A stretch of 64,000 bases of DNA from Pseudoalteromonas spongiae UST010723-006 (GTDB taxonomy: Bacteria > Pseudomonadota > Gammaproteobacteria > Enterobacterales > Alteromonadaceae). The position numbers and the translations under genes were made by a program. The DNA is taken from assembly GCF_000238255.3 (NCBI RefSeq), contig NZ_CP011040.1, positions 1,116,001-1,180,000 of the forward strand, given 5' to 3'. Shown here in pieces: positions 18,809 to 37,956 of the stretch. How positions within the stretch are numbered: the stretch's first letter is position 1; every line of letters begins with the position of its first letter. The notes beneath the pieces are model-generated. The model was not told the origin of the DNA and ran no database searches. It worked only from the letters and a program-made list of their open reading frames with translations.

Positions 18809-18836
18809 AAAGGTCGCGCTATGCGGCCTTTTGTTG
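18809..18836 (+). terminator. Terminator after the siderophore receptor
   Basis: AAAGGTCGC and GCGGCCTTT form a nine-base stem with a five-base loop, followed by TGTTGTTTTT. It may be leaky so that the downstream PepSY gene is still read. An apparent ATG inside the loop (18821) is why the longer ORF start is not used for the next gene. Confidence 0.75.
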
Positions 18837-18862
18837 TTTTTATAAACGGACGTCACCGAATT

Positions 18863-21433: not shown

Positions 21434-22342
21434 TTACAAGTTAAAGGCTCTACCAGCAATATCCACATTAAAGGTTTCAATGGCGCCGCGTTTTTGCATG
21501 GTTACAAACACGGTTTTACCGTCTTTACCACCAAACGCCACATTAGTTGGAAATTGCCCTTTTAGTTTTATTTCTCTTAGTAATTTACCTTTTGGAGAAA
21601 CCACCGCAATAACACCTGCACCATAGCGTGCAATATATAAGTTACCTGCCTTATCTGTACGCATTCCATCAAGGCCAAAATCGTCAAATTCAATCAGCAG
21701 TTGTTTATTAGAAACATTGCCTTGTCCGTCAAGATCATAACGCCATACTTTACGCTGCACACTTTCGTTTACATACAAGATGTTATTATCTGGGCTAACT
21801 TCAACACCATTGGTGGTGCCCATATTCGCCTCTAATAGGCTTGTTTCACCTTGTTTGTTTATACGCCATAAATTACCTGCGCTGGTTTGCCAGTTTGGGT
21901 CGCTCGCAAATAAAATACCGTTATCCATAATGGCGAGATCATTTGGTTGATTCATTTTTGCATTATGGGCAAACACCTTAACTTTGTCTGCGAGTTCGCC
22001 GCCTTGCGCTAAGTCTTTCGCAGCTATTGTTAGTACATTGTGATTAACGTAGTCAGCAATATACATGTTGCCTTTTTTATCAAAGCGAATGCCATTACCG
22101 ATAGAGCCATTTTTAAGCGTAACGAGCGTCTCGACTTTATCTTTACCAAGCACTTTACCGATAGTGCCTTGGTGTTTGTAATTCACCGCGTATAACACAC
22201 CTTGCGAGTCAACTGCAGGGCCCTCTACGCCATTGGTAAACGCATTATCTTTCACCCAGTCACTTGTCTCGAATAACGTGTCACTGCTTGCATGGGCGGC
22301 AAATAATGCCAGAATTAGTGCACTTGCTATGTTTAATTTCAT
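21434..22342 (-). CDS. Periplasmic SMP-30/gluconolactonase-family protein
   Basis: A 302-residue beta-propeller with a signal peptide (about 1-20, AAHASSD). SMP-30 metal ligand motifs are visible: Glu in NGVEGPAVD, Asn in MNQPNDLAI, Asn in TTNGVEVSPD and Asp in FGLDGMRTD. These enzymes hydrolyse sugar-1,5-lactones to aldonic acids. It is the last gene of the eight-gene operon, nine bases after the hexosaminidase. A periplasmic lactonase fits opening of the lactone made when C1-oxidised chitin sugars form; that substrate is inference from context. An arylesterase-like activity is an alternative. Confidence 0.8.
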   Translation of the reverse strand: MKLNIASALILALFAAHASSDTLFETSDWVKDNAFTNGVEGPAVDSQGVLYAVNYKHQGTIGKVLGKDKVETLVTLKNGSIGNGIRFDKKGNMYIADYVNHNVLTIAAKDLAQGGELADKVKVFAHNAKMNQPNDLAIMDNGILFASDPNWQTSAGNLWRINKQGETSLLEANMGTTNGVEVSPDNNILYVNESVQRKVWRYDLDGQGNVSNKQLLIEFDDFGLDGMRTDKAGNLYIARYGAGVIAVVSPKGKLLREIKLKGQFPTNVAFGGKDGKTVFVTMQKRGAIETFNVDIAGRAFNL

Positions 22343-22351
22343 TGTTATTCC

Positions 22352-24760
22352 TTATTGTTCGGTGCAAGCAAGATAGAGATCTCGCATTGGATAAATACCT
22401 GCAATCACAAGTTCGTCTGTGAGTTTTTGTAAATCAAGCAACTGCTCATCTAACCCGGTTCCTTTTATTTCACCTTTACAACTGCTTATCACCTGTTGTG
22501 AAAGCCCAATAAATTGCGTTAGTGATATAAGCGTTGGTTTTAGCTCGCTTAATTTTTTACTTGATGAGAGGGTTTCAAGCCCCATTTCAAGGCCTTTTTG
22601 CCACTTTATTAATTGCTTATCTAATTGCGTTATCGAATTAACATCGCCTGAGGTATAGGCTAGCACCCAGCGTTTAATTTGGCGTACTTGCTCACTTTCA
22701 ACATATAAATAATCAACAAATAAATGAAGTGACGCCTCTTGATGATATTCATCGTTTAAATATTTAATATGGTGGCGCGTATAGTAATGAGCTGGTTCAA
22801 GCAGTGCTGCCATCGTATTAAGAAGCGCTAAGGTAGAAGCTTTTTCTTGTTTACTAAGCGACTTAGAAAGTTGGCTTTCAAAGCCACTTTGTTGCTGCGA
22901 TAAATGCGCTGCACCAATCACATTTGCAGCAAATGTATTGATAAAAGCCAAGCGCAAATACATGCTGTTTTCATCTGTATATTCTTTATTTGACCACAAG
23001 CGTTCACTTATAACATACAAACGCGGCCAAATGCGCAAATCAATATTGTCATCGGTCACCATTTCGCTCCAAATAGTCGCTTCAGCACCTAAAATATTCG
23101 CTGCATTTGCGCTTTTTAATGCTTGAGATAGCGATACGGGAGATGGCGTGTTAAGCGTTGATAATTTAACGGGGTAACGGCTATTACCAATCATCACAGC
23201 GCTATTCTCCCCATTTAAATCAAATTCAAAGGTCAGTGGCCCCATCCAACTGTCCATTTTGGCTATAAATGCATTTGTTGTTTGATTAGGTGTTTTATTA
23301 ACTAATGCCAACTGATGGTGGTTATTATTAAGTTTAATTAAAACTTGCTCACCTAAAACAACCAGCTCACCTTTAACATCGCTGCCTTTTAAGCGGTCAA
23401 TCACAAACGACTTTGCCAATACCTGCGGTTTTGATAAATCAACTAGTGGCAATTTGCGTAGTGGATCATTGCGATAGTGATAGTCGCTGTATTGCGGCTG
23501 ATCAATATAAAACCCTGTCGATAAAATACCTAAATGGCCGCTATTAGCGACTTCATTTAATGAGTCATGACCGCGCCATGATTGCACCACAATATCTTTT
23601 GGTAAATCTTGATGAAAAATCTCATCCCAACCCATCATTATTCGCTGGTGTTTAGCAATAATAGGTTGAATTTGGGTATTAAAATAATTCTGCAAATCAT
23701 GGCCATTTTTAAGGGAGTGCTTGGCCATTAGCGCTTGAACATGCTTATTATTTAACCACTGCTCGGGTTCGACTTCATCACCGCCAATATGTAAATACTG
23801 ATCAGGGAAAATAGCTGTCATTTCTTCGATTAAACTATCTACAAACTGATATACCTCAGGTTTTGAAATATCAAGTAACGGCTTAAATACGCCCCAATGA
23901 CGCTCCATTTCATAGGGCTTTACCTCTGCCATAAGCTCAGGGTATGCAACGGCAATGGCACTAGCATGACCCGGCATACCAAATTCAGGCACCACTCGAA
24001 TACCTAAAAGAGCGGCATACTCAATAACTTCCTTTACCTCACTTTGGCTGTAATAGAGGCCATCTGATGCCTTTTGCGTAAGCTTTGCAAAGCGTTTACT
24101 TTCAATGCGCCAGCCTTGATCGTCTGTTAAATGCCAGTGCAACACATTTAATTTGGCTGAAGCCATGGTGTTTAGCTGACGTTTAATTGTCTCAGTTGAT
24201 AAGAAATGTCTCGCACTATCAATTAATAACCCACGCCAAGCAAAACGTGGCGAATCAGTAATTATTGCATGAGGTAGTATCAGTTGATTGTCAAAATGGT
24301 TTGCCGCAATTTGTGTTAGCGTTGTTAAACCATGCTGCGCGCCAAACACGGTATTAGCGTTTAGTGTGATGCCTTCTTGGTTAATCACTAATTGGTAACT
24401 TTCGTCGTTATTGAGCTGTGGCACCAGCAAATCGCTTTCCTTGTCGCGCACAATGACTTTCAGGGTTGCGTTATCTGGGTTTCGCTTTTTGTTATTTGCT
24501 AATTCTATTAAGGTGATTTTATGCTTTGCTATACGTGTTAAGTGCAATTCTAAACGCTTGGCTTGAAATTCTTTTCGCTTGTCACTAAACCCTTCAAATG
24601 AGAATTCAATTTGACTAGATAAGCGCACTTCACCCATTTGCCTCTCAAATGATTGTGGTTGTGGCATTAAGCTGGTTTCGGCAAAAAGTAATGAGCTAAA
24701 CAGCAATAAACTACACAGCTTTAAAAATACACATGCTTTATTAATAAAATGTATCGACAC
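22352..24760 (-). CDS. Beta-N-acetylhexosaminidase, GH20
   Basis: Cleaves terminal beta-GlcNAc (or GalNAc) by substrate-assisted catalysis. About 802 residues: signal peptide (ending LLFAETS, about 28), GH20b-like N-terminal domain (30-165), then the TIM barrel with RGLLIDSARHF, HWHLTDDQGWR, PEFGMPGHA and the catalytic Asp-Glu pair in HIGGDEVEP (about 328-329). The C-terminal part after about 640 is a helical extension. A central insert (about 425-545), largely beta and not obviously part of the barrel, separates two halves of the catalytic domain. Its start overlaps the kinase stop by 20 bases, so it is translationally coupled. Confidence 0.92.
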   Translation of the reverse strand: MSIHFINKACVFLKLCSLLLFSSLLFAETSLMPQPQSFERQMGEVRLSSQIEFSFEGFSDKRKEFQAKRLELHLTRIAKHKITLIELANNKKRNPDNATLKVIVRDKESDLLVPQLNNDESYQLVINQEGITLNANTVFGAQHGLTTLTQIAANHFDNQLILPHAIITDSPRFAWRGLLIDSARHFLSTETIKRQLNTMASAKLNVLHWHLTDDQGWRIESKRFAKLTQKASDGLYYSQSEVKEVIEYAALLGIRVVPEFGMPGHASAIAVAYPELMAEVKPYEMERHWGVFKPLLDISKPEVYQFVDSLIEEMTAIFPDQYLHIGGDEVEPEQWLNNKHVQALMAKHSLKNGHDLQNYFNTQIQPIIAKHQRIMMGWDEIFHQDLPKDIVVQSWRGHDSLNEVANSGHLGILSTGFYIDQPQYSDYHYRNDPLRKLPLVDLSKPQVLAKSFVIDRLKGSDVKGELVVLGEQVLIKLNNNHHQLALVNKTPNQTTNAFIAKMDSWMGPLTFEFDLNGENSAVMIGNSRYPVKLSTLNTPSPVSLSQALKSANAANILGAEATIWSEMVTDDNIDLRIWPRLYVISERLWSNKEYTDENSMYLRLAFINTFAANVIGAAHLSQQQSGFESQLSKSLSKQEKASTLALLNTMAALLEPAHYYTRHHIKYLNDEYHQEASLHLFVDYLYVESEQVRQIKRWVLAYTSGDVNSITQLDKQLIKWQKGLEMGLETLSSSKKLSELKPTLISLTQFIGLSQQVISSCKGEIKGTGLDEQLLDLQKLTDELVIAGIYPMRDLYLACTEQ

Positions 24761-25727
24761 CTAAACACTCCTGGTTCGAAAGTTTGGGAAGAAAATGAGT
24801 TGGGATAAGCGCACCATGCTGCTTAATTACCGAAGCAGCTACCTTATGCGCAAAATGTGCGGCACTTTGTGTACCACGCCCAAATAACATTGCCGCTAAA
24901 AAACCTGCGGCAAACGAATCGCCCGCGGCGCAGGTATCGACAACTTGCTTTTGGGTTAGCTGCTCTGCTGCCACATAAAGCAATGCGTCTTTGCCAACTT
25001 CTTGAATCACACAGGGCCCTGCACCTTGTCGAATAACAAGGGTTTGCCTAGAACTTTTCCCTTTGAAGTGTAAGTCAATTATATCGCTCACCGACTGCGT
25101 GCCATAAACGGCATATTCATCTTCATTGGTTAAAAATGCGATGTCGGCAAGTGCCATTAACGAAAAGTAATCATGAATGGGCGATATCGACTGCCAAAGC
25201 GCTGGGCGATAGTTATTATCAAAATAAATGATGCCGCCCTTCGCTTTAAATTGGTGTAGTGCATTTATAAGCACAGCTCGTTGCTTTTCATCTAAAATGG
25301 CGAGGCTTATACCCGACAGATAAATGGCATCCACTTGTTTTGTTTCAAGTGCAGTAAGTAGTTTGCGAGACAAAGAAAAATAATCCCTAGCCGCACTATT
25401 TTGCCTATCAAAACGAAAAGAGCGCTCGCCGCTATCACAAACATCAACCCAGTATTGCCCTAATGTTTTTGTTGGGTGGCGCTCAATAAAATCAAGCTTA
25501 ATTCCAGATTGTGTCATTAACGCTTTTAGCATTTCACTTTGGCTATCAGTACCAATTGCCGTTGCGTAATAAATTTGAATAGGTTTTTCGCCCTGCGAAG
25601 CTATGAGCTGACTCAGGTAATAGGCGGTATTAAAGCTATCGCCACCAAAAAACACATCGCCATCAGCGCGATGCTCAATCAAACACTCGCCTAAAAACAC
25701 AATGGAATTGAATGGTTGCAGCATCAC
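24741..25727 (-). CDS. kdgK: 2-dehydro-3-deoxygluconokinase (KDG kinase)
   Basis: Phosphorylates 2-keto-3-deoxygluconate to KDPG with ATP, in the cytosol. A PfkB-family protein of 328 residues, very close in motifs to E. coli KdgK as I recall it: FLGECLIE at the N-terminus, FFGGDSFNTAYYLSQL substrate loop, YLSGISLAIL, FDNNYRPALW, ADIAFLTNEDE and the anion-hole/catalytic segment DTCAAGDSFAAGFLA. A start two codons later (second Met) is possible. Overlaps the transporter stop by four bases. No KDPG aldolase is in the window, so the Entner-Doudoroff aldolase must be elsewhere. Confidence 0.92.
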   Translation of the reverse strand: MMLQPFNSIVFLGECLIEHRADGDVFFGGDSFNTAYYLSQLIASQGEKPIQIYYATAIGTDSQSEMLKALMTQSGIKLDFIERHPTKTLGQYWVDVCDSGERSFRFDRQNSAARDYFSLSRKLLTALETKQVDAIYLSGISLAILDEKQRAVLINALHQFKAKGGIIYFDNNYRPALWQSISPIHDYFSLMALADIAFLTNEDEYAVYGTQSVSDIIDLHFKGKSSRQTLVIRQGAGPCVIQEVGKDALLYVAAEQLTQKQVVDTCAAGDSFAAGFLAAMLFGRGTQSAAHFAHKVAASVIKQHGALIPTHFLPKLSNQECLGVDTFY

Positions 25728-27175
25728 ATTAGCTCCACTTTATGTTTCTGCACTATTTTTGATGGCGTTTTTATTTGTGTAACTAGGCTCACAACAACGC
25801 CAAAAAACGCGCCACTTAATACCGCCGGTATTGAAGGGTTACCAAAAAATGCGAGCCACTTGGGGTTATAACCTATTAGCGCTGCTGTTAAAGTACTCGC
25901 CACTAAAATGGCAATACTGCCTTGCCATGTTAACTTTCGCCAAAAACGACCAAGTAACCCCATCACAAACAAGCCACACAGTGCGAGCGAGATCATTTTA
26001 GTGATATAGGTGATGATATTATTAGATAAAAGGGCAAATGAAAGCGCGATCGTCACGGTTAAAATCATGGCAATACGTGATAATACAAGTTGTTGTTTAT
26101 CTGTTAGAGGTTGCTTACTCAGTGATTTTTTGAAAAGCCAAGCATAAATATCACTGACGAATACGCTAACCCCTGCGATAGCATCGGAACTTGCGCTTGA
26201 AAGAGTTGCCGATACACCCGCTAATAAAATAAGCCCGCCCAGTAAAAGTGGTAGAGTATTAAGTGCAATATACGGAAAAGCATACTCAGGATTATCTAAA
26301 TCCCCCTTAATCAAATAAGCGCAAATACCGATAATTGCAGGTACTAATGAAAACCCTAAATAAAGTACGCCCGACATCAAAAACGATTTGCGAATACTGC
26401 TGACACTGTCACCTGAATAGATGCGCTGGCGAAATGAAGGGGTTGCCATTACCCCAACCAATACTGCAAATGACATAGAGATTGCTGGAATAAGGCCGAT
26501 ATTCTGATAAGACAAAAAACCACTACCGTTAACCAGTTGGTTGTTTTGTACCGCTTGCCAACCACCGACAGAATCAATCGCAAAATAGGCCATTAATAAA
26601 AAGCCTACAAATAAAATCACCGCTTGAATGGCATCGGTCCACACCACTGCAGAATAGCCCCCTAGGGTGACATAAATGGCAAGGCCAATGCCGATAATTA
26701 GCTTTGCAGTGGTATCATCTATGCCCGCAAGCCATGCTAAATACATACCACCACCTATTAAATGCGCACCTAACCAGCCAATACTCGCGGCATAAATAAT
26801 CACAGCGAGGACTTTTTTTACAAGTGCGTTATTGCCCACATAGCTCGCAAGCTCTTCACTCATGGTGGCAAATTGTTGTTTGCGAACAGGTGCGAATACC
26901 CATGCCAATAACAGTATTCCCACCGCACCACCTATGCCGTAGAGCGCCCCCGCCCACGCATTTTGATAAGCAAAACCCACAGCCCCCATCGAAGAGCCGG
27001 TGCCGACCATAGTTGCAACCGTGGTGCCGAGTGTCAGTAATAAAGGCACTTTTCGCCCAGCTAACAAAAAGTCGCTACCGGATTTTTGCCAGCGAGAAAC
27101 AAACCAACTAATTGCAATCATGGCAAGCAAATAGGCAAAAAATGCAGCCAGAAACGTCATTTGTTGTGATGTCAT
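25724..27175 (-). CDS. Sodium:solute symporter (SSS family)
   Basis: A 483-residue inner-membrane carrier with about 13 hydrophobic segments and the SSS hallmarks: W-rich N-terminal TM1-2 with FLLAGRKVPLLLTLGTTVAT, GTGSSMGAVGFAYQ, and the GGYSAVVWTDAIQ motif. Solute is imported with Na+. Substrate cannot be read from sequence; operon context (deacylase, PLP dehydratase, KdgK) suggests an acidic amino sugar such as GlcNAc-1-acid or its deacetylated form. Overlaps kdgK by four bases and follows RidA by 46. Confidence 0.88.
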   Translation of the reverse strand: MTSQQMTFLAAFFAYLLAMIAISWFVSRWQKSGSDFLLAGRKVPLLLTLGTTVATMVGTGSSMGAVGFAYQNAWAGALYGIGGAVGILLLAWVFAPVRKQQFATMSEELASYVGNNALVKKVLAVIIYAASIGWLGAHLIGGGMYLAWLAGIDDTTAKLIIGIGLAIYVTLGGYSAVVWTDAIQAVILFVGFLLMAYFAIDSVGGWQAVQNNQLVNGSGFLSYQNIGLIPAISMSFAVLVGVMATPSFRQRIYSGDSVSSIRKSFLMSGVLYLGFSLVPAIIGICAYLIKGDLDNPEYAFPYIALNTLPLLLGGLILLAGVSATLSSASSDAIAGVSVFVSDIYAWLFKKSLSKQPLTDKQQLVLSRIAMILTVTIALSFALLSNNIITYITKMISLALCGLFVMGLLGRFWRKLTWQGSIAILVASTLTAALIGYNPKWLAFFGNPSIPAVLSGAFFGVVVSLVTQIKTPSKIVQKHKVELM

Positions 27176-27221
27176 AAGTGCCCCTATTTTTTATTATTCT
27201 AATGGCGCGTCAGGTCAGCGC

Positions 27222-27608
27222 TTATTGATCTTTGTAGCAGGTCACATCAACTTCTACTTTACAGTCAACAACCAGGTCTGCCACCATGCAAATGCGCGCA
27301 GGCGGGTGCTCACCAAATACTTCTGCAAATACTTTATTAAATGACTGAAAATAACGAGAGTCCGTTAATACCACCGATACATGGGTTACTGTTTCAAGGC
27401 CATATCCTGCCTCAGTCATAATGTCGATACAGTTTTGTATGGCAAGACGCGATTGCTCAATAATGCCGCCTTCAACAACTTCGCCATCGCGCATGGGGGT
27501 TTGCCCCGATACTTTTAACCAACCACCCGCTTCTACTGCGCGTGAAAAAGGTAAATGTTGGCCACCTGTACCTGTGCCGCCTTCTGCGCCAATACGTCTA
27601 ATTGTCAT
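27222..27608 (-). CDS. RidA family enamine/imine deaminase
   Basis: About 128 residues, one domain (YjgF/YER057c/UK114). Conserved features: GGTGTGGQHLPFSRAVE and GWLKVSGQTPM near the N-terminus, QNCIDIMTEAG in the middle, and PPARICMV with the catalytic Arg, then KVEVDVTC at the end. RidA speeds hydrolysis of reactive 2-aminoacrylate-type intermediates released by PLP dehydratases, and this operon encodes such an enzyme. The start MTIRRIG (27608) has AGAGGAAATT just upstream; the longer ORF start has no such site. Confidence 0.9.
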   Translation of the reverse strand: MTIRRIGAEGGTGTGGQHLPFSRAVEAGGWLKVSGQTPMRDGEVVEGGIIEQSRLAIQNCIDIMTEAGYGLETVTHVSVVLTDSRYFQSFNKVFAEVFGEHPPARICMVADLVVDCKVEVDVTCYKDQ

Positions 27609-27682
27609 AATTTCCTCTTTTAAATGCTGCATTGAGAACCTTTTCTCAACATTTCAAAATTCTTATTTAGTTGGGGCTCATA

Positions 27683-29143
27683 TTAAGTGCGTGATAAAAA
27701 TCGCCCGGCTCGCCCAAATTGCGTAACGCTTAGATCATCAAGACCCTCAACAAAGCTTACTTTGCCGTTGACCCATACACACTTAATGCCGTCAGCTTGT
27801 GCTTGAGGGTTTTGATAGCTGGCGTTATCGATAATCGTGTTTGCATCAAATAACACTAAATCCGCAAAGTAACCTTTAGCAATTTTGCCGCGATTGTTGA
27901 GCTTAAATTGCGATGATGGCAGCGCTGTCATTTTATGAATAGCCAATGCCAGCGACAGCGTTTGCTGCTCTCTTGCGTAATGCCCTAATACTCTTGGGAA
28001 CGTGCCCCATAAACGCGGATGCGGGTGTGGATCGCACGGCAAACCATCCGAGCCAATCATACTGTTTTCATAGCTTAAAAACTGTTTTACATCGTCTTCA
28101 AACATGCAGTGATAAACCGCACCGGCAGGCATTAATTTTTTAGCAGCGTCCATTAATGATAATTGCCAGTTATTTGCTATATCACGCAAACTTTTTTCAG
28201 CCATTTCAGGATGGGTTTCAGACCACGTAATGTAAATCTCGGTACTGTCAGTGACCTGATTTAAATCAAGCGTGCTTGAGCTCGCGGCATACGGATAACA
28301 ATCGCAGCAAGCGAGTTGTGATTGTCGTTTATCTTCTAGATGCGCTAATACTTCCTGTGCACGTCCCCAATTATCAATGCCGGCGCATTTTAAGTGGGAA
28401 ATAATCAGCGGAAGCTTTGCTTGTTTAGCGGTTGCAAATGCTTCATCCATAGCATCAATAATGCCTTGAAATTCAGTGCGTAAATGCGTGGTATACACAC
28501 CTTCAAACGGCGTTACACATTTGGCAAGACGATTCACTTCTTCACGACTTGATGCTTTAGCATTCGGATAAGCAAGCCCAGTACTTAGCCCTAATGCCCC
28601 CTCTTCTAGCTGAGTACGCAGTAACGACTGCATTTGGGTAATTTCTTGTTCTGAGGCAGCTTTTGATAAATCATTCATTACTTGCGCACGCAGGCTAGTA
28701 TGGCCAATTAATTGGGCAAGATTAACGCTTGGCTTTATGTCGTCGAAAGCAATTCTAAAATCAGCTAAATTGGGATATTTAAAATCTGCTTTCTGGCCCA
28801 ATAAATTAATCGGGTCTACTGGCTCAATATCTGCAGCATAGGGCACACTACTAATACCACAGTTGCCTGCAATCACCGTAGTTACACCTTGACTGACTTT
28901 GCACAGCATATGCGGATTACGCAGCACTTCTAAATCGTCATGGGTATGCACATCGATAAAACCTGGGGCTAATGTTAACCCTGTTGCATCAATAACTTGC
29001 TCTGAGTACAAGTGAGAACAATCACCGAGCGCAATAATGCGCTCGTCACTTATGGCAACATCGCCAACAAAGCATTCATTTAGCTCGCCCGTGTAAACAG
29101 TCGCGTTACGAATCTCGGTGGTAGGGTGGTTATTATCACTCAT
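27683..29143 (-). CDS. D-aminoacylase / N-acyl-amino-acid deacylase family amidohydrolase
   Basis: A 486-residue cytosolic metal hydrolase. Metal motifs: IDVHTHDD (His 66 and 68), SHLKCAG, and a late Asp in MIGSDGLPCDPHPHPR, all typical of D-aminoacylases; the Cys in the metal site region (GNCGISS) is also conserved. It hydrolyses N-acyl groups from D-amino acids or, as related enzymes do, from N-acetyl sugar acids. Operon context favours deacetylation of N-acetylglucosaminate to glucosaminate plus acetate. Separated from the regulator stop by only two bases. Classical N-acyl-D-amino acid hydrolysis remains the alternative. Confidence 0.88.
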   Translation of the reverse strand: MSDNNHPTTEIRNATVYTGELNECFVGDVAISDERIIALGDCSHLYSEQVIDATGLTLAPGFIDVHTHDDLEVLRNPHMLCKVSQGVTTVIAGNCGISSVPYAADIEPVDPINLLGQKADFKYPNLADFRIAFDDIKPSVNLAQLIGHTSLRAQVMNDLSKAASEQEITQMQSLLRTQLEEGALGLSTGLAYPNAKASSREEVNRLAKCVTPFEGVYTTHLRTEFQGIIDAMDEAFATAKQAKLPLIISHLKCAGIDNWGRAQEVLAHLEDKRQSQLACCDCYPYAASSSTLDLNQVTDSTEIYITWSETHPEMAEKSLRDIANNWQLSLMDAAKKLMPAGAVYHCMFEDDVKQFLSYENSMIGSDGLPCDPHPHPRLWGTFPRVLGHYAREQQTLSLALAIHKMTALPSSQFKLNNRGKIAKGYFADLVLFDANTIIDNASYQNPQAQADGIKCVWVNGKVSFVEGLDDLSVTQFGRAGRFLSRT

Positions 29144-29145
29144 AT

Positions 29146-30018: not shown

Positions 30019-30035
30019 ATGTTACTGCTTCCTAA

Positions 30036-31262
30036 TTAAAAAAAGGTTGAAATAGTTTTGCGAATTACCCAATCGTCATCGGCGATTGCTACCTGGCGCC
30101 ATTTATCAAACGTTAAACACGGATGAGACGTCGAAAAACAGACCATGTCACCCACTTTCAGATTGCAGTTGTCAGGCAAGGTTAGCATGGCATGTTGGTC
30201 CATGATTTTAACGGTTTGAATTAAGGCATCAGCCGCTTGCAACGTTTGGTTATCAACATGATAGATTAATTCTGCCTTTGGTAAACCTGCGTCAAATGCT
30301 ACATCACGTTTACCTAAGCCGACAATGGCAAGCCCTGCTTCGGGACGCGATACAACATACGCCCACACCGTTAAGCTTGATGCTAAATCACCTGTCACAT
30401 CACAAGCCAATTGACTACGTGCCATTACTGCATTTTGTGCATCTTGATAAATGCCAGTGTCATGAATAAGGTAACAGCCTGGGCGAATCACTAAATTAAA
30501 GTTCTTTTGGTGATTATGCTTGCCGAGTGTATTGGCTACGATGTCATACCAAGCAGATCCTGCGCCAGTAATAATGGGCTTATCTAAATCAAACGCATTT
30601 TGTTGTCGAAGTGTGCTTGCGAGTTGATAAATTTCATCAACAAATATAGTGACTTTTTCAAGGGCATTACTACCGCCAATCACCCCTTCATAAAAACCAA
30701 TTCCTGCGAGCTTTAAACTTGGGTGCTGTTTACATGCAGCTAGAAATGCATCGGTATTATTCACATCACGCCAACCACAGCGGCCACCTTGTGCACCAAT
30801 TTCTAAAAGAATGTTAATTGATACTTTTCGCGCATCAAAAAAGCGGCCTATTTGCTTGGCGTTTTCTACCGAATCGACAAAACAGTAAAATTCCACATCG
30901 GTGCTTTCAAGTAAATTAGCTATTTGTTCAAAGTGGTATTTTCCTACCAATTGATTTGCCAAAATAATTCGTTTAACACCGTGATTTACTGCGTTAAGTA
31001 CTTGCGCGACCGTTGCAAGGGTAATACCCCAGGCACCGTGCTCAAGCTGCATTTTAAAAAGCGCTGGCGCCATAGTGGTTTTGCCATGAGGGGCTAAGTT
31101 CACTTTAGCCTTTTGACAAAAGTCGCCCATCCACTTTGCATTATTATTAATGGCCGATTGTGATAATACTGCAACCGGAAAACTCACCTCTTCACGCAAT
31201 ATATGCCAGCCACCGTGTGCAAGAGATTGTGGATTTCCCGCACCTTTAATTACTTCATTCAT
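30036..31262 (-). CDS. PLP-dependent D-threonine-aldolase-fold enzyme, candidate D-glucosaminate dehydratase
   Basis: A 408-residue fold-type III (alanine-racemase barrel) enzyme. PLP lysine in VNLAPHGKTTMAP (about residue 61), barrel core with ILANQLVGKYHF and LLEIGAQGGRCGWR, and a C-terminal beta domain with the metal-binding CFSTSHPCLTFD (His and Cys) typical of D-serine dehydratase/D-threonine aldolase. D-glucosaminate dehydratase, giving 2-keto-3-deoxygluconate and ammonia, is a known member of this fold, and adjacent KdgK makes that the best guess; D-amino-acid deaminase is the alternative. The longer ORF begins with a TTG; ATG 31262 gives the usual family start. First gene of the operon. 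Confidence 0.78.
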   Translation of the reverse strand: MNEVIKGAGNPQSLAHGGWHILREEVSFPVAVLSQSAINNNAKWMGDFCQKAKVNLAPHGKTTMAPALFKMQLEHGAWGITLATVAQVLNAVNHGVKRIILANQLVGKYHFEQIANLLESTDVEFYCFVDSVENAKQIGRFFDARKVSINILLEIGAQGGRCGWRDVNNTDAFLAACKQHPSLKLAGIGFYEGVIGGSNALEKVTIFVDEIYQLASTLRQQNAFDLDKPIITGAGSAWYDIVANTLGKHNHQKNFNLVIRPGCYLIHDTGIYQDAQNAVMARSQLACDVTGDLASSLTVWAYVVSRPEAGLAIVGLGKRDVAFDAGLPKAELIYHVDNQTLQAADALIQTVKIMDQHAMLTLPDNCNLKVGDMVCFSTSHPCLTFDKWRQVAIADDDWVIRKTISTFF

Positions 31263-31319
31263 AAAACTTGTTACCAAATTGCTAACAGCGAAACACCCAA
31301 CTAATACAATTCTATTCAA

Positions 31320-31678
31320 TCTAGATGCATTTCAAACAAATTTGTTATCAAAGTGTTGCTTTTTTAATTATGTTAATGTTAAAAAGTAACAAGTTCAAGA
31401 TATTTATGTGTTACTTTTTAACATTACAAAGGAACAGACATTTACATCTGAACTAGGTGAGTCAACTTTCAAGTATCAGCTAAACTGGGCTGTTGATAAG
31501 AGTTTAGCGCTGCGTGAATTGAGCTGTAAAACGCATTAATTACTGTCGAAGTTACGACCCTTTTATTATTTTTTTGACAAGCAATGACAACGCTGTCAGC
31601 AAATTATACAAGTAATCACAACAATAAGGTTTCTCGGAATTATTTTCTGATAGAACTAAACACTAATAGGGGAAAACT
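31320..31678. other. Divergent promoter region of the amino-sugar-acid locus
   Basis: No coding sequence. It separates the eight-gene minus-strand operon from the receptor on the plus strand and contains the twin palindromes (31377-31423). The receptor ribosome site AGGGGA lies at 31668-31673, six bases before its GTG start. Confidence 0.6.
31375..31425. promoter_or_regulatory. Twin palindromic operator, TGTTA-N5-TAACA
   Basis: Two 17-base arms, AATGTTAAAAAGTAACA (31375-31391) and TGTTACTTTTTAACATT (31409-31425), are perfect inverted copies. Each arm is itself a dyad, TGTTA-N5-TAACA, at 31377-31391 and 31409-31423. The centres are 32 bases apart, about three helical turns, so two dimers would sit on one face of the DNA. 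The only regulator gene of the locus is MurR/RpiR, making it the likely ligand. Confidence 0.7.
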
Positions 31679-34600
31679 GTGTCCAACAGAACATTTAAAC
31701 GAAGCGTGCTGTCTTCAACCATAGCGGTAGCACTCTCTGCCGGTTTCGCACAAAACGTTATCGCTGAAGAAAAATCATCAGCTGATGCCGAAATGGAAGT
31801 TATTCAGGTTAAAGGTATTCGCGCCAGTACAGTTAAAGCGATTAACGTAAAGCGTTTTGCACCTTCACAGGTTGATGGCATTGCATCAGAAGATATCGGT
31901 AAACTACCCGACGTAACAATTTCAGACTCGCTACAGCGAATCACTGGTGTACAGGTTGAGCGTACTGCAGGTGAAGGTGGTCCGGTGCAAATCCGTGGTC
32001 TACCTCAAGTCGATAGTACACTTAATGGCGAAGTATTTTTAAGTGCAACGACCATAGATTCATCAGGCGCTGATTTTGGTGATTTACCAGCACAGCTTTT
32101 CTCGGGTGTTGATGTTTATAAAACAAGTGAATCTAAGCGTTCTGCTGCAGGTATCTCAGGTTCGATTGACCTTAAAACACGCCGTCCATTCGATATGAGC
32201 GAAGGTTGGACAACAAACGTAAGCGCAGATGTAACACAGGGCTCTATTAGTGATGAAACAGATCCAAATCTAAACGGCCTAATCAGCTATAATGCTGATA
32301 AATGGGGTGTTTTATTCTCTGCGGTAACACAAGAAGCAACCCTAGCTACAGACTACAACGGTTATTTCGATACCTCTGAAAATGGTGGTATCGGAGCAGC
32401 AAATAACAATTTCACATGGGGTCAAAACCCTCAAGGTAACGACATTCGTCACGTTGTACCGCAAGGTTTTGCTGCATTTAACAAACAAGAAAAACGTGAG
32501 CGTCAAGGTTTCCAGTTTGCTTTTCAAGCGGATTTAAGTGAAGGCTTTGAACTTGTGTTCGAAGCATTCTACACCGATCAAGAGCGTTTTAACGAACGCC
32601 AAGGTTTATCACAAAACAACCGTTGGTATTCATTTAACGACTATGCATTCCCCACTGAATCAGGATGGACAGGCGACACGTTTACTGATGAAGATGGCAA
32701 TGCATGGGGTGCGGTAAATGATTTTTACCTACAACCATGGCGTTTACAAACCTTCACTCAGGTTAACAATAACTACGAAACCTCAACTAACTTAAACTTA
32801 GAGCTTAACTTTAATAACGGTGGCCCGCTTTCAGGTCAAGTTCGTGTTACACGTGCTAAAGCGGATGCAAGCATGCGCCACGGCTATGGTGAAGGTGATT
32901 TACTGAGTATTGATCAAGGGACTCGTGTAACTGGTCCTGGTCAGTTTACACCGGCTGAATACTGTGGCGATGGTGATACCATTGTGGGCGACCAAGGTGG
33001 TTGTTACGCGCAATTCTCACCAGGCGGTATTGAAGATGATTCATTCCTACTACGTTATGATGCACGTGGTGAATCGCCAGTATTTAGTGGTTTTGATCAA
33101 CTGGTAAATGGCGGCCAAGGCTTAATGAGCGTTGCTGATTACATGGGCAGCTTAGATTCATACCACATTGGTGCATTCTCGTCTGAAGGTAATACAGACG
33201 ACGAAGGTGAAATCAACACATTCAGCACGAAATGGAACTATCAATTTGACGACATGGAATTCATCACGAGTGTTGATTTTGGTGTGCGCTTTATGGAACG
33301 TAAAGTGGACCATGACCAATTTACATACACATCTGAATTTGGTGATGGCTGTGATATCGCACAGTGGAAAGCGGTTGACCAATATCACACTGTTGATACC
33401 TGTGAAGGCAACCCAGCAGCAGGTGAATACCTAACAGAAGATGTGGGTGATTTAACTGCGGGTACTTGGGTGCCTTACACATTACTTAACCCTACTCGTC
33501 TTGATACACATACCACTGTTAGCCAGATTTCTAACTTCGGTAGTGTAAAAGGCATTCCAACAATGTGGGCGATTGATCCGAGTAACTTCCGCGATCCACG
33601 TCAGTTCCACCTAGACACATTTGGTAATGTACAGCGCACTGAAAACGCAGGTGCTTCTTTCGATGTTAAATTGAACGAATTCAGCTATTTTGCACAAGCC
33701 AACTTTGAGTGGGAAATGATCCGCGGTAACTTTGGTGTTAAAGTGGTTGAAACTGACCTATACGTGAAGCAAAACCTTGCGGGTTCGAACTTACCTCACT
33801 CAGGTCTAGGTCCAGATATTGGCGACGTAGTAACAGAGCGCAGCTATACGGATTACCTACCATCATTAAACGTGTCAGCTGATGTAACAGAAGACGTTAT
33901 TGTACGTGGTGCATACGCTAAAAACATGCAAGCACTTGACCTTGCAAGTTGGGGCGGTGGTAAAACGGTTGGTAAAGCAATTAACGGTGAATGTGACTGT
34001 TTACGCGTAGTAAATGGTAACCTAACAGGTAACCCGGCACTTAACCCATGGCGTTCAGATAACTACTCACTATCAGCTGAGTGGTATAATGGCGAAGCGT
34101 CAATGATGTTCTTATCACTTTACCGCATCGAAATTGAAAGCTTCACAGAAAGCGGTACTGTTTGGATTGATGAGCCAGATGATGATGGTATCAGCCGTGG
34201 TCCATGGCCTTTCAGTACGCAAGTACAAGGTAAAGGTGGTGATGTAAGCGGTCTAGAAGTGGGTATTCGTGCTGCAATGAGCGACTACACAGATATCGCA
34301 ATTCTTAATAACTTCGGTATCGATGCTAACTACACATACAGTGATAGCTCGCAACAAAACAAAGACGTAAATGGCGACGATTTACCATTCGTTGGTATGT
34401 CAAAAGACACATACAACTTTGTGCTTTGGTATGAGCAAGAAGAGTTCTCAACGCGTTTAGCATGGAACTCACGTAGCCCGCGCTTAATCACACAAGGCTC
34501 AAGTGCAGTTGGCGGACAATCACTGTACCAAGATACCTATTCACAACTTGATTTCAGTGCAACCTACCACGCAACTGATTATCTAGATATTTACTTACAC

Positions 34601-34714
34601 GGTTCGAACATAACTGAAGAAGTTCAACAAACTTACCTTGAATTCTCTTCACAAAAAGCGTTCCGTAACGAGTATGAATCGCGTTGGACCCTTGGTGTTA
34701 GGGCAACATTTTAA
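31679..34714 (+). CDS. TonB-dependent receptor, Xanthomonas/Caulobacter-type glycan family
   Basis: A 1011-residue outer-membrane receptor with GTG start and AGGGGA ribosome site. Signal peptide about 1-29 (ending NVIAEEK), TonB-box-like EVIQVKG, plug domain (about 45-190: IASEDIGKLPDVTISDSLQR, GGPVQIRG, AAGISGSIDLKTRRPFD), then a very large barrel ending LGVRATF. The GKLPD signature marks the TIGR01782-type receptors found at glycan-use loci. It faces the catabolic operon across the twin palindromes, so oxidised or normal chitooligosaccharides are the likely ligand. A strong terminator follows. Confidence 0.92.
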   Translation: MSNRTFKRSVLSSTIAVALSAGFAQNVIAEEKSSADAEMEVIQVKGIRASTVKAINVKRFAPSQVDGIASEDIGKLPDVTISDSLQRITGVQVERTAGEGGPVQIRGLPQVDSTLNGEVFLSATTIDSSGADFGDLPAQLFSGVDVYKTSESKRSAAGISGSIDLKTRRPFDMSEGWTTNVSADVTQGSISDETDPNLNGLISYNADKWGVLFSAVTQEATLATDYNGYFDTSENGGIGAANNNFTWGQNPQGNDIRHVVPQGFAAFNKQEKRERQGFQFAFQADLSEGFELVFEAFYTDQERFNERQGLSQNNRWYSFNDYAFPTESGWTGDTFTDEDGNAWGAVNDFYLQPWRLQTFTQVNNNYETSTNLNLELNFNNGGPLSGQVRVTRAKADASMRHGYGEGDLLSIDQGTRVTGPGQFTPAEYCGDGDTIVGDQGGCYAQFSPGGIEDDSFLLRYDARGESPVFSGFDQLVNGGQGLMSVADYMGSLDSYHIGAFSSEGNTDDEGEINTFSTKWNYQFDDMEFITSVDFGVRFMERKVDHDQFTYTSEFGDGCDIAQWKAVDQYHTVDTCEGNPAAGEYLTEDVGDLTAGTWVPYTLLNPTRLDTHTTVSQISNFGSVKGIPTMWAIDPSNFRDPRQFHLDTFGNVQRTENAGASFDVKLNEFSYFAQANFEWEMIRGNFGVKVVETDLYVKQNLAGSNLPHSGLGPDIGDVVTERSYTDYLPSLNVSADVTEDVIVRGAYAKNMQALDLASWGGGKTVGKAINGECDCLRVVNGNLTGNPALNPWRSDNYSLSAEWYNGEASMMFLSLYRIEIESFTESGTVWIDEPDDDGISRGPWPFSTQVQGKGGDVSGLEVGIRAAMSDYTDIAILNNFGIDANYTYSDSSQQNKDVNGDDLPFVGMSKDTYNFVLWYEQEEFSTRLAWNSRSPRLITQGSSAVGGQSLYQDTYSQLDFSATYHATDYLDIYLHGSNITEEVQQTYLEFSSQKAFRNEYESRWTLGVRATF

Positions 34715-34759
34715 TCCTTAGAATTATTAGGATTTAGGTTGAATTAACACTTTCTGCCC

Positions 34760-34795
34760 AAGACTGCCGTCATTTGGCGGCAGTCTTTTCTTTTG
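34760..34795 (+). terminator. Terminator after the glycan receptor
   Basis: AAGACTGCCG and CGGCAGTCTT form a ten-base stem with an eight-base loop, followed by TTCTTTT. It implies that the two halogenase-like genes have their own promoter or rely on read-through. Confidence 0.9.
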
Positions 34796-34816
34796 GTTTC
34801 ATCACGATACAATGCA

Positions 34817-34879
34817 AATACCCATTTGATTAACTAATTGCCTATTTACTTAATCAAGTTACTTAATCAAATTGGTATT
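34817..34879. repeat. Short inverted repeat with AATACCAATT-type ends
   Basis: Left arm AATACCCATTTGATTAACTAA and right arm (as reverse complement) AATACCAATTTGATTAAGTAA differ at two positions. TTACTTAATCAA is repeated in tandem inside the right part. The outer sequence ATACCAATT is shared with the 162-bp repeat at 58252-58413, so this may be a small derivative of that family. It ends 24 bases before the first halogenase-like gene. Confidence 0.55.
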
Positions 34880-34903
34880 GAAGTATAAGCACGAGTGTGA
34901 ACC

Positions 34904-36442
34904 ATGACAGAAGATACAAAAACAATAAATTCCATCGTCATCGTTGGCGGCGGTACATCTGGCTGGATGACAGCTGCAGCCCTTGCTAATCACGCCCCGC
35001 TAAAACACTGTAAAATAACCCTAATCGAATCAAGTAAACTTGGCACCATAGGTGTCGGTGAAGCCACTATTCCAACTTTACGCCGCTTTTATCAAAACTT
35101 AGGTCTTAGTGATATTGACGTACTAAACGCCACCAAAGGCAGTTGCAAACTTGGTATTGAATTTCAAGGTTGGGCAGGTGAAAACTCGCGCTTTATTCAC
35201 CCATTTGGTATTTACGGACAAAGCACACCAAGTACCCCATTTCATCATTATTGGCTGCGCGCCGAACAAGCAGGTGCTCACAGCGATTTAACTGACTATT
35301 CTCTTGGCGTGCAAATGGCAAAGCACAACAAATTTGTGCCGCCAAAAATAAAGCCTCAAAACCAGTTAGAAATTTTTGATTGGGCACTGCATTTTGACGC
35401 AAGCCTGTTTGCAAAACTGATGTTTGATTATTCAACCAATAAAGGCGTTAAGCATATCGATAACACCATCAGTAATATTGAAAATCACCCTGATGGCAGT
35501 ATTAGCCAATTACAATTTGAAGATGGCTCTAGCATCGTCGCCGATTTATTTATTGATTGTTCTGGCTTTAAGGCGCTGTTAATTGGTGAAAACCAAGCTG
35601 TTGAATATGAAAATTGGAGCCATTGGCTATTAAATGACAGCGCTATCGCAGTGCAAACAAGCGCAACGACTGAACCCATTACCCGTACCCTCGCTATCGC
35701 GAAAAAAGGCGGCTGGCAATGGCGTATACCGCTTCAGCATCGCGTTGGCAATGGCTACGTTTACAGCAGCAAATACCTTTCCCATGACGAAGCAGAGCAA
35801 AGTTTGCTTGCATCAATCGATGGCGAAATTTTACAGCCACCACGTAAATTTAGTTTTACCCCAGGGCGGCGAAAATCTGCATGGCATAACAACTGTGTCG
35901 CCATTGGTTTAAGCTCTGGCTTTTTAGAACCATTAGAGAGCACCAGCATTGCACTGGTTGAAACAGCAATCGAAAAACTCTTACTTACTTTCACGAGCAA
36001 TCACTACTCAGCACACGATGTCGCTAAATTTAATGATGTGAATGCACAAGAATATGAGCGCGTGCGCGACTTTATAATTTTGCACTATAAGTTAAACGGC
36101 CGCAGCGACAGCCCTATGTGGCAGTATTACCGCGATATGGCAATTCCGGCATCACTCGAAGAGAAAATGCTAACCTTTGCTAAAACCGGCGAGTTGAAAC
36201 GCCTGCCTTGGGAAATGTTTGGCCCCGACAGTTGGCTGGCTATTTACCACGGTTTAAATTTTTTACCCGAAAACTACCAAGCAAGCGCAGATAATATGCC
36301 GCTCAATTACTTAAACGAACATTTAACTAAAATGCGCGAAATGGTTTCAAGCCAAGTAAACAATGCGCCTACCCACAGCGAATTTTTAGAAAAGCACTGT
36401 GGCTATCAACCAATCAAGCAACAGGAAGCGGTATGCAGTTAA
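34904..36442 (+). CDS. Tryptophan-halogenase-like flavoprotein 1
   Basis: A 512-residue FAD enzyme of the Trp_halogenase family. FAD site VGGGTSGWMTAAAL (about 13-26), GVGEATIPTL, candidate catalytic Lys in GSCKLGIEF, the WxWxIP motif as GGWQWRIPLQHR, and GFLEPLESTS with the conserved Glu. No flavin reductase gene is nearby. Homologues beside TonB receptors are common in glycan loci, where their role is unsettled; halogenation of tryptophan is therefore not assumed. Its last ten bases overlap the start of the second copy, so the two are translationally coupled and diverged by duplication. Confidence 0.85.
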   Translation: MTEDTKTINSIVIVGGGTSGWMTAAALANHAPLKHCKITLIESSKLGTIGVGEATIPTLRRFYQNLGLSDIDVLNATKGSCKLGIEFQGWAGENSRFIHPFGIYGQSTPSTPFHHYWLRAEQAGAHSDLTDYSLGVQMAKHNKFVPPKIKPQNQLEIFDWALHFDASLFAKLMFDYSTNKGVKHIDNTISNIENHPDGSISQLQFEDGSSIVADLFIDCSGFKALLIGENQAVEYENWSHWLLNDSAIAVQTSATTEPITRTLAIAKKGGWQWRIPLQHRVGNGYVYSSKYLSHDEAEQSLLASIDGEILQPPRKFSFTPGRRKSAWHNNCVAIGLSSGFLEPLESTSIALVETAIEKLLLTFTSNHYSAHDVAKFNDVNAQEYERVRDFIILHYKLNGRSDSPMWQYYRDMAIPASLEEKMLTFAKTGELKRLPWEMFGPDSWLAIYHGLNFLPENYQASADNMPLNYLNEHLTKMREMVSSQVNNAPTHSEFLEKHCGYQPIKQQEAVCS

Positions 36443-37956
36443 CACACAATCCCATTGAAAAGTTTGTTATTGTCGGTGGCGGCACCGCAGGTTGGCTTGC
36501 TGCAGCAACGCTTGGCAATATTTTTAAAGACAGCAACACCCAAGTTGAGCTGATTGAATCAGACGAAGTGAATATTATTGGTGTTGGCGAAGCCACGATT
36601 CCGCCGCTTATTGATACCCTAGAAAGCCTCGGCATTGATTTAGTTGAATTTATAAAAGCCACCCAAGCTAGTTTTAAATGGGGTATACAGTTTGAAAACT
36701 GGTATCAAGAATCACATAGCTATTTTCATCCCTTTGGGGAGGTTGGCCAAAAGATTGATGGTCACGAGTTTTACCAATGTTGGCTTAAACAAAAAGCAGA
36801 AGGCGACACCACACCACTAATGGCCTATTCGCCAGAAGCGGTATTATCAGAAAAGAATCGTTTTTTTGTACCGCATCAAGCGATGAATACACCGCTTGCA
36901 GGCGCCCGCTTTGCACTGCACCTTGATGCTGTGCTGGCAGGCCAATACTTACGCAAATTCTCTGAAAATATTGGTGTAAAGCGCACCGTTGGCCATGTTG
37001 AGTCAATTAGTAAGAGCATCGACGGTAATATTGCGTCTGTCACATTAAAATCAGGCGAGACAATTAAGGGTGATTTTTTTATTGATTGTACGGGCTTTAA
37101 GGGCTTACTCATTGGTAATGCACTCAATACCGAATACCAAGATTGGTCCGAGCATTTACCCTGCAACCGCGCAGTTGCTGTGCAAACCAAACTCACAGGA
37201 AATACCAAACCCTATACCGTTTCGCGCGGGCAAAAAGCCGGTTGGAGCTGGCATATTCCGCTGCAACACCGCACAGGTAATGGTTATGTATATTGTGATA
37301 AGTACATCTCCGATGAAGAAGCGATTCAAACCTTACTTGATAATGTTGACGGCGAGCCGCTAACCGAGCCAAGAGTTATCCCATTTGTTACCGGTGTGCG
37401 CGATAAAGTGTGGAATAAAAACTGCCTATCACTTGGCCTTGCACAGGGGTTTTTAGAGCCGCTCGAATCCACTGCAATTCATTTAGTCTCTAAATCACTG
37501 GCACTGTTTGTGCGCATGTTTCCGACTAAAACCCCAAATGCGGTATTACAAAATGAATTTAACCGCCGCATTAGTGGTGATTATCAAGAAATTCGCGACT
37601 TTTTAGTGCTGCACTACTGCACCACTAAACGTGACGACTCAGCGTTTTGGCGCGATTGGCAACAAAAACAAATTCCGGCAAGTTTAGCCACACGCATCGA
37701 ATTTTTTAAACAAAGCGGTGGATTGATCCCAGGTGTTGAAGAGCTATTCCAACCCACCAGCTGGTATGCGGTGTTTGATGGTATGGGAGTAGTGCCTAAT
37801 GGATACAACCCTACCTTAGATGCGCTTAACAGCGAAATGCTTGCAAAAAGCCTAGCGGCTGGCAGAAATGCCCTTGAAAAATGCGCTGAAGCGCAGCCCA
37901 GCCACGATGATTTTTTACAAAAGTACAGTCCTGCCAATGAGGCGATTTTTAACTAA
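36433..37956 (+). CDS. Tryptophan-halogenase-like flavoprotein 2
   Basis: A 507-residue paralogue of the preceding gene, with all the same landmarks: VGGGTAGWLAAATL, GVGEATIPPL, QASFKWGIQFENW (candidate catalytic Lys), GWSWHIPLQHRTGNGYVY, and GFLEPLESTA. Starts inside the end of copy 1. Divergence between the two is substantial, so they probably act on different substrates or as a heteromer. With the receptor and deacylase operon adjacent, a role in modifying or processing an imported compound is plausible but unproven. Confidence 0.85.
   Translation: MQLTHNPIEKFVIVGGGTAGWLAAATLGNIFKDSNTQVELIESDEVNIIGVGEATIPPLIDTLESLGIDLVEFIKATQASFKWGIQFENWYQESHSYFHPFGEVGQKIDGHEFYQCWLKQKAEGDTTPLMAYSPEAVLSEKNRFFVPHQAMNTPLAGARFALHLDAVLAGQYLRKFSENIGVKRTVGHVESISKSIDGNIASVTLKSGETIKGDFFIDCTGFKGLLIGNALNTEYQDWSEHLPCNRAVAVQTKLTGNTKPYTVSRGQKAGWSWHIPLQHRTGNGYVYCDKYISDEEAIQTLLDNVDGEPLTEPRVIPFVTGVRDKVWNKNCLSLGLAQGFLEPLESTAIHLVSKSLALFVRMFPTKTPNAVLQNEFNRRISGDYQEIRDFLVLHYCTTKRDDSAFWRDWQQKQIPASLATRIEFFKQSGGLIPGVEELFQPTSWYAVFDGMGVVPNGYNPTLDALNSEMLAKSLAAGRNALEKCAEAQPSHDDFLQKYSPANEAIFN

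Follow-up and report, generated by a model that had tools for sequence, protein, structure and literature searches.

Which carbon source would a divergent locus serve that sets sugar-acid enzymes against a glycan-type TonB receptor? The question is raised by a 64,000-nucleotide stretch of Pseudoalteromonas spongiae UST010723-006 (contig NZ_CP011040.1, positions 1,116,001 to 1,180,000; from here: the window), located on the smaller of the two contigs (3.15 and 1.60 Mb) of this genome. An octet of minus-strand genes (31319 to 21434) diverges here from three plus-strand open reading frames (ORFs; 31679 to 37956), and a sequence-only reading had proposed a complete pathway for N-acetylglucosamine (GlcNAc) oxidised at C1. 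We report that the locus is very probably an ong cluster, which would degrade C1-oxidised chito-oligosaccharides made by a secreted lytic polysaccharide monooxygenase (LPMO).

The ong cluster of P. prydzensis comprises ongOT-1, ongCRBD and ongIT-kdgK-ongA and was characterised with mutants and purified enzymes, which gave experimental roles to uptake, OngA, OngIT, OngB, OngC, KdgK and OngR (PMC9537276; for this paper and PMC12017989 we refer to the main text throughout). In the window, ongC, R, B, D, IT, kdgK and A are all present in the published order, together with a TonB receptor. The proposed complete pathway thus agrees with the published cluster in gene set and order, and the earlier pointer to a published pathway of this kind in marine Pseudoalteromonas was correct. 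One genome in our survey (G048) is taken as P. prydzensis because its OngB is 100% identical to the P. prydzensis enzyme (PpOngB) over the 457 residues compared. Its ong locus (L138, P. prydzensis ACAM 620) shares with the window the order of the seven genes, the divergent TonB receptor, the OngB active site and paired boxes at the equivalent place. The window differs in an added SMP-30 gene after ongA, in an OngOT-2-type receptor followed by two halogenase-family genes, in an ongD-ongIT gap of 46 bp instead of 423 bp and in an extra NagR-type box.

Both ends of the pathway are also encoded in this genome. A single LPMO_10 protein with GbpA_2 and CBM5/12 domains lies between two GH18 chitinase genes, and the only PF01081 match, the 2-keto-3-deoxygluconate 6-phosphate (KDG-6-P) aldolase gene eda, stands beside edd. 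Gene order, conserved OngB residues (19 of 20, see below), LPMO and edd-eda together therefore favour the pathway reading; its core is already known, and the window is a variant architecture of the published ong cluster. Functions of the individual proteins in this organism are those predicted by analogy with the P. prydzensis experiments.

The coordinates of the tightly packed octet hold, with intergenic gaps of 17, 2, 50, 46, -4, -20 and 9 bases, and Pfam and NCBIfam scans confirmed the earlier family calls: D-ser_dehydrat plus Ala_racemase_N, HTH_6 plus SIS (RpiR), Amidohydro_3, RidA, SSF symporter, PfkB, GH20 and SGL (SMP-30) on the minus strand, a TonB receptor (TIGR01782) and two Trp_halogenase proteins (PF04820) on the plus strand. 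The "two flavoproteins" of the sequence-only reading can be specified as members of the flavin-dependent-halogenase family. OngC occupies the same position as in L138. The ATG at 31262 is a more probable start for it than the TTG at 31319: even its nearest relatives reach an alignment coverage of only 96%, and the DNA alignment shows single-base gaps in the stretch concerned. OngA has a signal-peptide-like N-terminus (judged by eye) and the GH20 enzyme 6yhh as its nearest solved relative. A point against the pathway assignment is that kdgK, with KdgK as its best NCBIfam model, scored 270 bits against a model cut-off of 400.

In the proposed working, the OngOT-2-type receptor would bring C1-oxidised chito-oligosaccharides into the periplasm, where the SMP-30 protein may convert the 1,5-lactone end into an aldonic acid by ring opening and OngA would release GlcNAc and N-acetyl-D-glucosaminate (GlcNAc1A). 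OngIT would import GlcNAc1A, OngB would remove its acetate, and OngC, assisted by OngD, would deaminate the product to 2-keto-3-deoxygluconate (KDG); KdgK would then form KDG-6-P, to be split by the Entner-Doudoroff aldolase of the genome. Through a single paired operator, OngR may repress transcription in both directions until released by GlcNAc1A, with a possible NagR-type input at the receptor promoter. The earlier order of steps stands as published for receptor, periplasmic GH20, SSS symport, OngB, OngC and KdgK, but nothing in the published scheme corresponds to its lactone opening. The idea that the RidA protein clears enamine or imine by-products is not established; OngD is described as essential and given no role (PMC9537276).

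Three features go beyond this core: a lactone-opening SMP-30 step in 22 of the 32 clusters, two OngR boxes (TGTTAN5TAACA) in helical phase placed before whichever receptor is present, and exchangeable receptor modules, of which the one in the window would be wired to both OngR and NagR. We give this joint reading an even chance. Lactonase, operator and receptor variety would all be new, none being described in PMC9537276 or PMC12017989. The published ong scheme has no enzymatic periplasmic lactone-opening step; if the reading is true, most Pseudoalteromonas ong clusters examined possess one.

Table 1. Features of the ong locus, in window coordinates
Feature	Position	Strand	Assignment	Basis or remark
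SMP-30 gene	21434..22342	-	SMP-30/gluconolactonase-family protein, predicted periplasmic lactonase	Pfam SGL, E 2.4e-41
ongA	22352..24760	-	GH20 beta-N-acetylglucosaminidase	Pfam Glyco_hydro_20, E 1.9e-95
kdgK	24741..25727	-	2-keto-3-deoxygluconate kinase	PfkB and synteny
ongIT	25724..27175	-	SSS-family inner-membrane GlcNAc1A symporter	Pfam SSF and synteny; 46 bp after ongD
ongD	27222..27632	-	RidA-family protein	Pfam Ribonuc_L-PSP
ongB	27683..29143	-	GlcNAc1A deacetylase	57% to PpOngB (PDB 9kb1)
ongR	29146..30018	-	MurR/RpiR-family repressor	HTH_6 and SIS
ongC	30036..31319	-	Fold-type III pyridoxal-phosphate enzyme, predicted D-glucosaminate (GlcN1A) deaminase yielding KDG	Pfam D-ser_dehydrat/Ala_racemase_N
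Predicted OngR operator, copy 1	31377..31391		TGTTAAAAAGTAACA	
Predicted OngR operator, copy 2	31409..31423		TGTTACTTTTTAACA	32 bp from copy 1
NagR-type (GlcNAc regulator) palindrome	31585..31598		TGACAACGCTGTCA	80 bases upstream of receptor start
TonB-dependent receptor	31679..34714	+	Counterpart of the P. prydzensis ongOT-2 candidate	TIGR01782
Terminator-like hairpin	34760..34787	+	Between receptor and h1	12-pair stem and T-rich tail
h1	34904..36442	+	Flavin-dependent-halogenase-family protein	PF04820, E 1.4e-165
h2	36433..37956	+	Flavin-dependent-halogenase-family protein	PF04820, E 1.3e-167

The SMP-30 gene and two types of ong cluster

We surveyed 108 Pseudoalteromonas genomes and found OngB (threshold E ≤1e-100) in 32 of them; the 31 ong loci other than the window were compared by mapping the window proteins with tblastn. 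Two types emerged. Type 1 comprises 10 prydzensis-type loci (L134-L143) with an OngB 76-100% identical to PpOngB and a cluster lacking the SMP-30 gene, an absence seen in all nine clusters with a visible end (the contig of L135 stops after ongD). Type 2 comprises 21 loci plus the window, with an OngB 56-60% identical to PpOngB and SMP-30 after ongA as the last gene in 22/22. In the window, ongD and ongIT are separated by 46 bp. Of the other 21 type 2 loci, 19 have a gap of 19-59 bp and the remaining two of 93 and 235 bp, compared with 122-423 bp in the nine type 1 loci in which it could be measured. The window ongR is 59-61% identical to ongR of the 10 type 1 loci, and the window ongD 80-90% identical to theirs. 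No kdgK match was found between ongIT and ongA in the tblastn maps of L034, L035 and L139, where the kinase step may be encoded elsewhere. PfOngB, 57% identical to PpOngB and acting on GlcNAc1A only (PMC12017989), fits type 2, a membership that we infer.

The SMP-30 protein has a signal-peptide-like N-terminus (by eye), and its gene ends the operon 9 bp after ongA. It matches the SMP-30/gluconolactonase/regucalcin profile (PF08450) and has the conserved Glu, Asn, Asn and Asp of that family, from which it differs by its signal-like N-terminus and its place in an oxidised-chitin operon. These residues (E40, N134, N178 and D225), which we take to be metal or substrate ligands by comparison with human SMP-30, are invariant in 26/26 ong-linked copies and in 19/19 others, and therefore cannot separate the two groups.

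What the protein acts on is suggested by its setting. The products of LPMOs equilibrate between 1,5-lactone and aldonic acid, and the crystal structure of PpOngB contains an open-chain ligand (PMC12017989); lactone opening is hence the natural guess. We propose that the SMP-30 protein may be a periplasmic lactonase that opens the terminal 1,5-lactone, a new step in the pathway. If so, a dedicated lactonase would explain how LPMO lactone ends are cleared before they reach GH20 and an open-chain-binding OngB.

Several observations weigh against this step. Lactones open spontaneously under alkaline conditions, and the Km of PpOngB is similar from pH 6 to 8, from which its authors infer comparable affinity for both forms (PMC12017989), so that a lactonase may be dispensable. 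P. prydzensis grows on oxidised chitobiose with a cluster lacking SMP-30. At a threshold of E ≤1e-30, SMP-30 homologues occur in 71/108 genomes, one per genome, which rejects an ong-specific family: 22 are at ong in type 2 genomes, all 10 type 1 genomes carry one elsewhere, and 39 are in genomes without OngB. As 49 of the 71 genomes thus have their homologue outside a type 2 cluster, the substrate need not be the GlcNAc1A lactone. Compared with the P. prydzensis cluster, lactonase and flavoproteins are additions, as suggested earlier, though counterparts of both exist elsewhere in the P. prydzensis genome.

A less probable explanation is that the gene stands after ongA by chance and takes no part in the pathway, encoding a sugar-lactonase of general function or some other hydrolase. 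The wide occurrence of homologues fits this, as do the 20 inspected of the 49 copies outside type 2, 19 of which lie among other genes and one in the remnant L159; so do the functioning of prydzensis-type clusters without a linked copy, the apparent indifference of OngB to lactone or open form, and the 341 bp between ongA and SMP-30 in L122. But the gene is last in 22/22 type 2 clusters, is within 10 bp of ongA or overlaps it in 20 of the 21 fetched loci, and keeps its active-site residues, although other copies do so too. It also stays beside ongC and ongA in L159, and the ong-linked copies, including one from Colwellia, form one clade apart from the 19 other sampled copies.

This clade came from a 45-row tree built on the 22 type 2 copies, those of L159 and Colwellia, both Gilvimarinus copies and 19 others (the duplicate L033 was excluded), in which the ong-linked Pseudoalteromonas copies, Colwellia and L159 make up a single group of 24 rows with a support of 96/90. 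Two label changes were needed against a shuffled mean of 14.7, with 0/500 shuffles as low, near-copies inflating the clustering. The rows from outside the genus come from a second set of named loci, selected for their similarity to OngB (the best 80 of 506), among which four have SMP-30 of the window kind within their flanks: L033 (a duplicate of a locus in the genus set), Colwellia sp. D2M02 and two Gilvimarinus. Because the two Gilvimarinus copies fall outside the main ong clade, on long branches and with unsure placement, they suggest a second recruitment of the gene. The words lactonase, SMP-30 and halogenase do not occur in the main texts of PMC9537276 and PMC12017989, and a literature search on lactonase and GlcNAc1A returned no paper with both words among the matches listed.

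The remnant itself (L159 8782-13467, in G028, where OngB was not found at the survey threshold) reads ongC-ongA-SMP-30; the ongR, B, D, IT and kdgK genes that would separate the first two are absent. Copies not linked to ong recur in settings of their own: those at L160-L162, L164, L165 and L167-L169 have a gene for a 750-770 aa protein and an ABC ATPase-like gene nearby, and those at L170, L172-L174 and L177 lie near a gene that reads like an anhydro-MurNAc kinase (both by eye).

Paired boxes between the divergent units

OngR represses ongOT-1 and ongCRBD in P. prydzensis (PMC9537276), and the words operator, binding site, palindrom, EMSA (electrophoretic mobility shift assay) and motif are absent from the main text of that report. 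Between ongC and the receptor of the window, two TGTTAN5TAACA boxes start at 31377 and 31409; of 100 shuffled versions of the window, two contained at least two exact matches. A pair of such boxes, 32-33 bp apart and matching at least 18 of 20 bases, was found in 32/32 ong-bearing genomes. Each of the 31 other loci has one such pair: 16 carry it upstream of ongC, and the 15 with a co-oriented, different receptor gene carry it upstream of that gene instead. Both boxes stand out as islands of conservation in an alignment of six divergent regions. We predict that the paired boxes are the OngR operator.

A genus-wide search with a spacing of 32 and at most two mismatches hit 28/108 genomes, 26 of them OngB-positive, and the remaining six OngB-positive genomes have a spacing of 33; the reversed control pattern matched one genome. 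Matches outside ong were second matches in G004, G082, G083 and G044, plus those in the OngB-negative G039 and G064. Among the named loci (best 80 of 506) with an ongC match, 41/55 have a box of at least 9/10 in the ~450 bases before ongC, compared with a mean of 0.77 and a maximum of 6 after mononucleotide shuffling; two of the 55 are also in the genus set. The pair was not found in the two Gilvimarinus loci. A simpler rule, that the operator always lies within ~450 bp of ongC, was rejected, since only 18/32 loci have a box of at least 9/10 there, one of them stray (L124). Extra single TGTTAN5TAACA boxes were seen at ~1700 and ~2290 in L130 and L131 (ongB-forward), upstream of a 723-aa ORF beside the cluster.

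As ongIT-kdgK-ongA-SMP-30 follow ongD closely in type 2, the whole window operon including these genes is probably under OngR control, unlike in P. prydzensis. The operator would provide a ready DNA signature for locating ong regulons. A literature search on OngR and the ong cluster gave three papers on the pathway among the matches listed, the others looking like chance strings.

The receptor, its halogenase-family genes and NagR-type boxes

Counterparts of the window receptor were searched by scoring the best seven candidates per genome, leaving aside one decayed piece in G102. Full-length counterparts with at least 65% identity exist in 11/108 genomes and stand at ong in seven: the window, L113, L114/L242 (split over two contig ends), L115, L127, L128 and L129. 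The P. prydzensis counterpart (G048, C1:713461) lies ~570 kb from ongOT-1 and is 66-67% identical to the window receptor. It is 32.4% identical to OngOT-1 (the window receptor 32%) and is by far the best OngOT-1 paralogue of its genome, with segments of 233 and 232 bits, the next reaching 151. OngOT-2 was described as 32% identical to OngOT-1, located elsewhere and induced by GlcNAc1A (PMC9537276). C1:713461 is therefore very likely ongOT-2.

In G048, too, h1 (57%) and h2 (61%) have counterparts downstream of the receptor. Across the 11 genomes with the module, an h2 counterpart (at least 50% identity) is present in 11/11 and an h1 counterpart (at least 54%) in 8/11; the other three have h2 immediately after the receptor and, facing it, a relative of h1 at 41-43%. 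Next to each other in L243 (G102, 6661-8032) are shortened counterparts of the receptor and of h2, apparently a decayed copy of the module. The h1 protein has GxGxxG, WxWxIP, K82 and GFLEPLEST, the last of which we take to hold the catalytic Glu, and the solved chains nearest to h2 are 9luq, 6frl (presumably BrvH) and 6y1w. GxGxxG, WxWxIP and the catalytic Lys and Glu, as defined for variant A halogenases in PMC5945002, are found in both h1 and h2. The BrvH-type halogenases of that paper share GxGxxG, WxWxIP and the conserved Lys, and BrvH likewise adjoins a second halogenase gene; the window pair differs in being combined with a glycan-type TonB receptor. In the P. spongiae genome, three of the four full-length Trp_halogenase loci lie beside a TonB receptor (L210 does not). 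A literature search on halogenase together with TonB receptor found no paper, and among the matches listed for a broader search only BrvH was relevant. Any role of the flavoprotein pair in the pathway is presumed, but the module places halogenase-family genes in a defined nutritional context.

The receptor promoter of the window contains TGACAACGCTGTCA, which matches the palindrome TGACANCGNTGTCA, a motif that we take to be that of NagR; boxes at nagB and nagK-nagA in the same genome fit this name. An exact match to TGACANCGNTGTCA is present in 7/7 ong-located promoters of the window-type receptor (six aligned), and none was found at the four stand-alone counterparts L238-L241. Two further ong loci, L035 and L036, have a NagR-type box near the operator. 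There are 14 exact NagR-type sites genome-wide. Four read TGACACCGGTGTCA and probably belong to another regulator; the other ten comprise two sites before nag genes, two before the receptor-halogenase-SapC locus, one before a LacI-type gene, that of the window and four elsewhere (L214, L224-L226), these four without an evident GlcNAc link. LacI-type NagR controls GlcNAc genes and outer-membrane receptors according to PMC5343134.

These boxes open a rival view of the module, to which we assign a minor share of the probability: it may serve chitin oligosaccharides or GlcNAc generally, as part of a NagR regulon, with the flavoproteins acting on something else. The NagR-type box of the receptor resembles those before nagB, nagK-nagA and a locus of TonB receptor, Trp_halogenase and SapC. 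Against an ong-specific module also speaks its presence in G103 and G028, both without OngB, and the hairpin between receptor and h1, one of 31 terminator-like sites found versus 18.5 expected, suggests that h1-h2 are at least partly separated from receptor transcription. However, receptor and ongC have the paired OngR operator region in common, and the receptor's counterpart in P. prydzensis ranks first among candidates for ongOT-2. Moreover, double deletion of ongOT-1 and ongOT-2 impairs growth on GlcNAc-GlcNAc1A and not on (GlcNAc)2 or GlcNAc (PMC9537276).

Two candidate extensions of NagR control were dropped. Where the receptor is co-oriented (15 type 2 loci), the NagR-type boxes fall within its coding sequence and specify NDSDV or similar, as checked at the receptor starts of four of them; NagR control of the chitinase-LPMO genes is not claimed, the box being inside a chitinase ORF. 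Elsewhere in the genome, L211 (C1, 3178-9399) is a second receptor/halogenase locus, in which a pair of NagR-type boxes precedes a TonB receptor gene and genes for a Trp_halogenase, a 2OG-Fe(II)-oxygenase-like protein and SapC come after it. L213 (C1, 1404-3875) contains three copies of TGACACCGGTGTCA in the surroundings of edd-eda, LacI-type genes and a gene resembling sugar kinases; these are likely sites of another LacI-type regulator.

OngB specificity and neighbouring genes

Among solved structures, the window OngB is closest to PpOngB (575 bits; 57% identity, PDB 9kb1 of PMC12017989), followed by the amidohydrolase 9g5m (540) and D-aminoacylases (at most 389). Of the 20 metal, catalytic and cavity residues named in that paper it keeps 19, comprising the Zn ligands and catalytic Asp (Cys97, His222, His252, Asp368) as well as Ser290-292, Gln298, Lys254, Tyr285, Arg379, Glu226 and Tyr194 in PpOngB numbering; Gly348 is replaced by Cys, as in 22/32 Pseudoalteromonas copies. 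Specificity for GlcNAc1A versus D-aminoacylases is determined by Ser292 and Gln298, in whose place D-aminoacylases carry Thr (for Ser292) and either Leu or Arg (for Gln298) (PMC12017989). Ser292 and Gln298 are present in the window, in 32/32 Pseudoalteromonas copies and in 66/66 named loci (best 80 of 506) with an OngB ORF above threshold. Ser290 is Gly in 8 of these 66, and Ser291 is Ala in 1/32 Pseudoalteromonas copies and 2 of the 66. The D-aminoacylase AfDam (1m7j) shares the deacetylase family and the catalytic residues and has Thr at the position of Ser292; the window protein differs in carrying the specificity residues of OngB.

That the operon instead degrades N-acetyl-D-amino acids, through a D-aminoacylase and a D-serine/D-threonine deaminase with RidA clearing enamines, is suggested by family names, by the D-serine deaminase 3gwq as the nearest solved relative of OngC and by the deamination of D-serine and D-threonine by P. 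prydzensis OngC (PMC9537276), but is very improbable and was rejected on OngB residues and gene content, since OngB is nearest to PpOngB (AfDam reaching 389 bits) with 19 residues kept, and amino acid catabolism would have no evident use for KdgK, GH20 or a glycan-type receptor.

A second Amidohydro_3 protein of 582 aa is encoded at 42287-44035 of the window, separate from the ong genes. Further neighbours are a PepSY_TM protein with a TonB receptor (16658-19966), an arrangement frequent in iron uptake, an ECF sigma factor gene followed by one for a 206-aa protein without Pfam match (39276-40446), and an AcrB-family pump with a HlyD-type adaptor (53792-58153).

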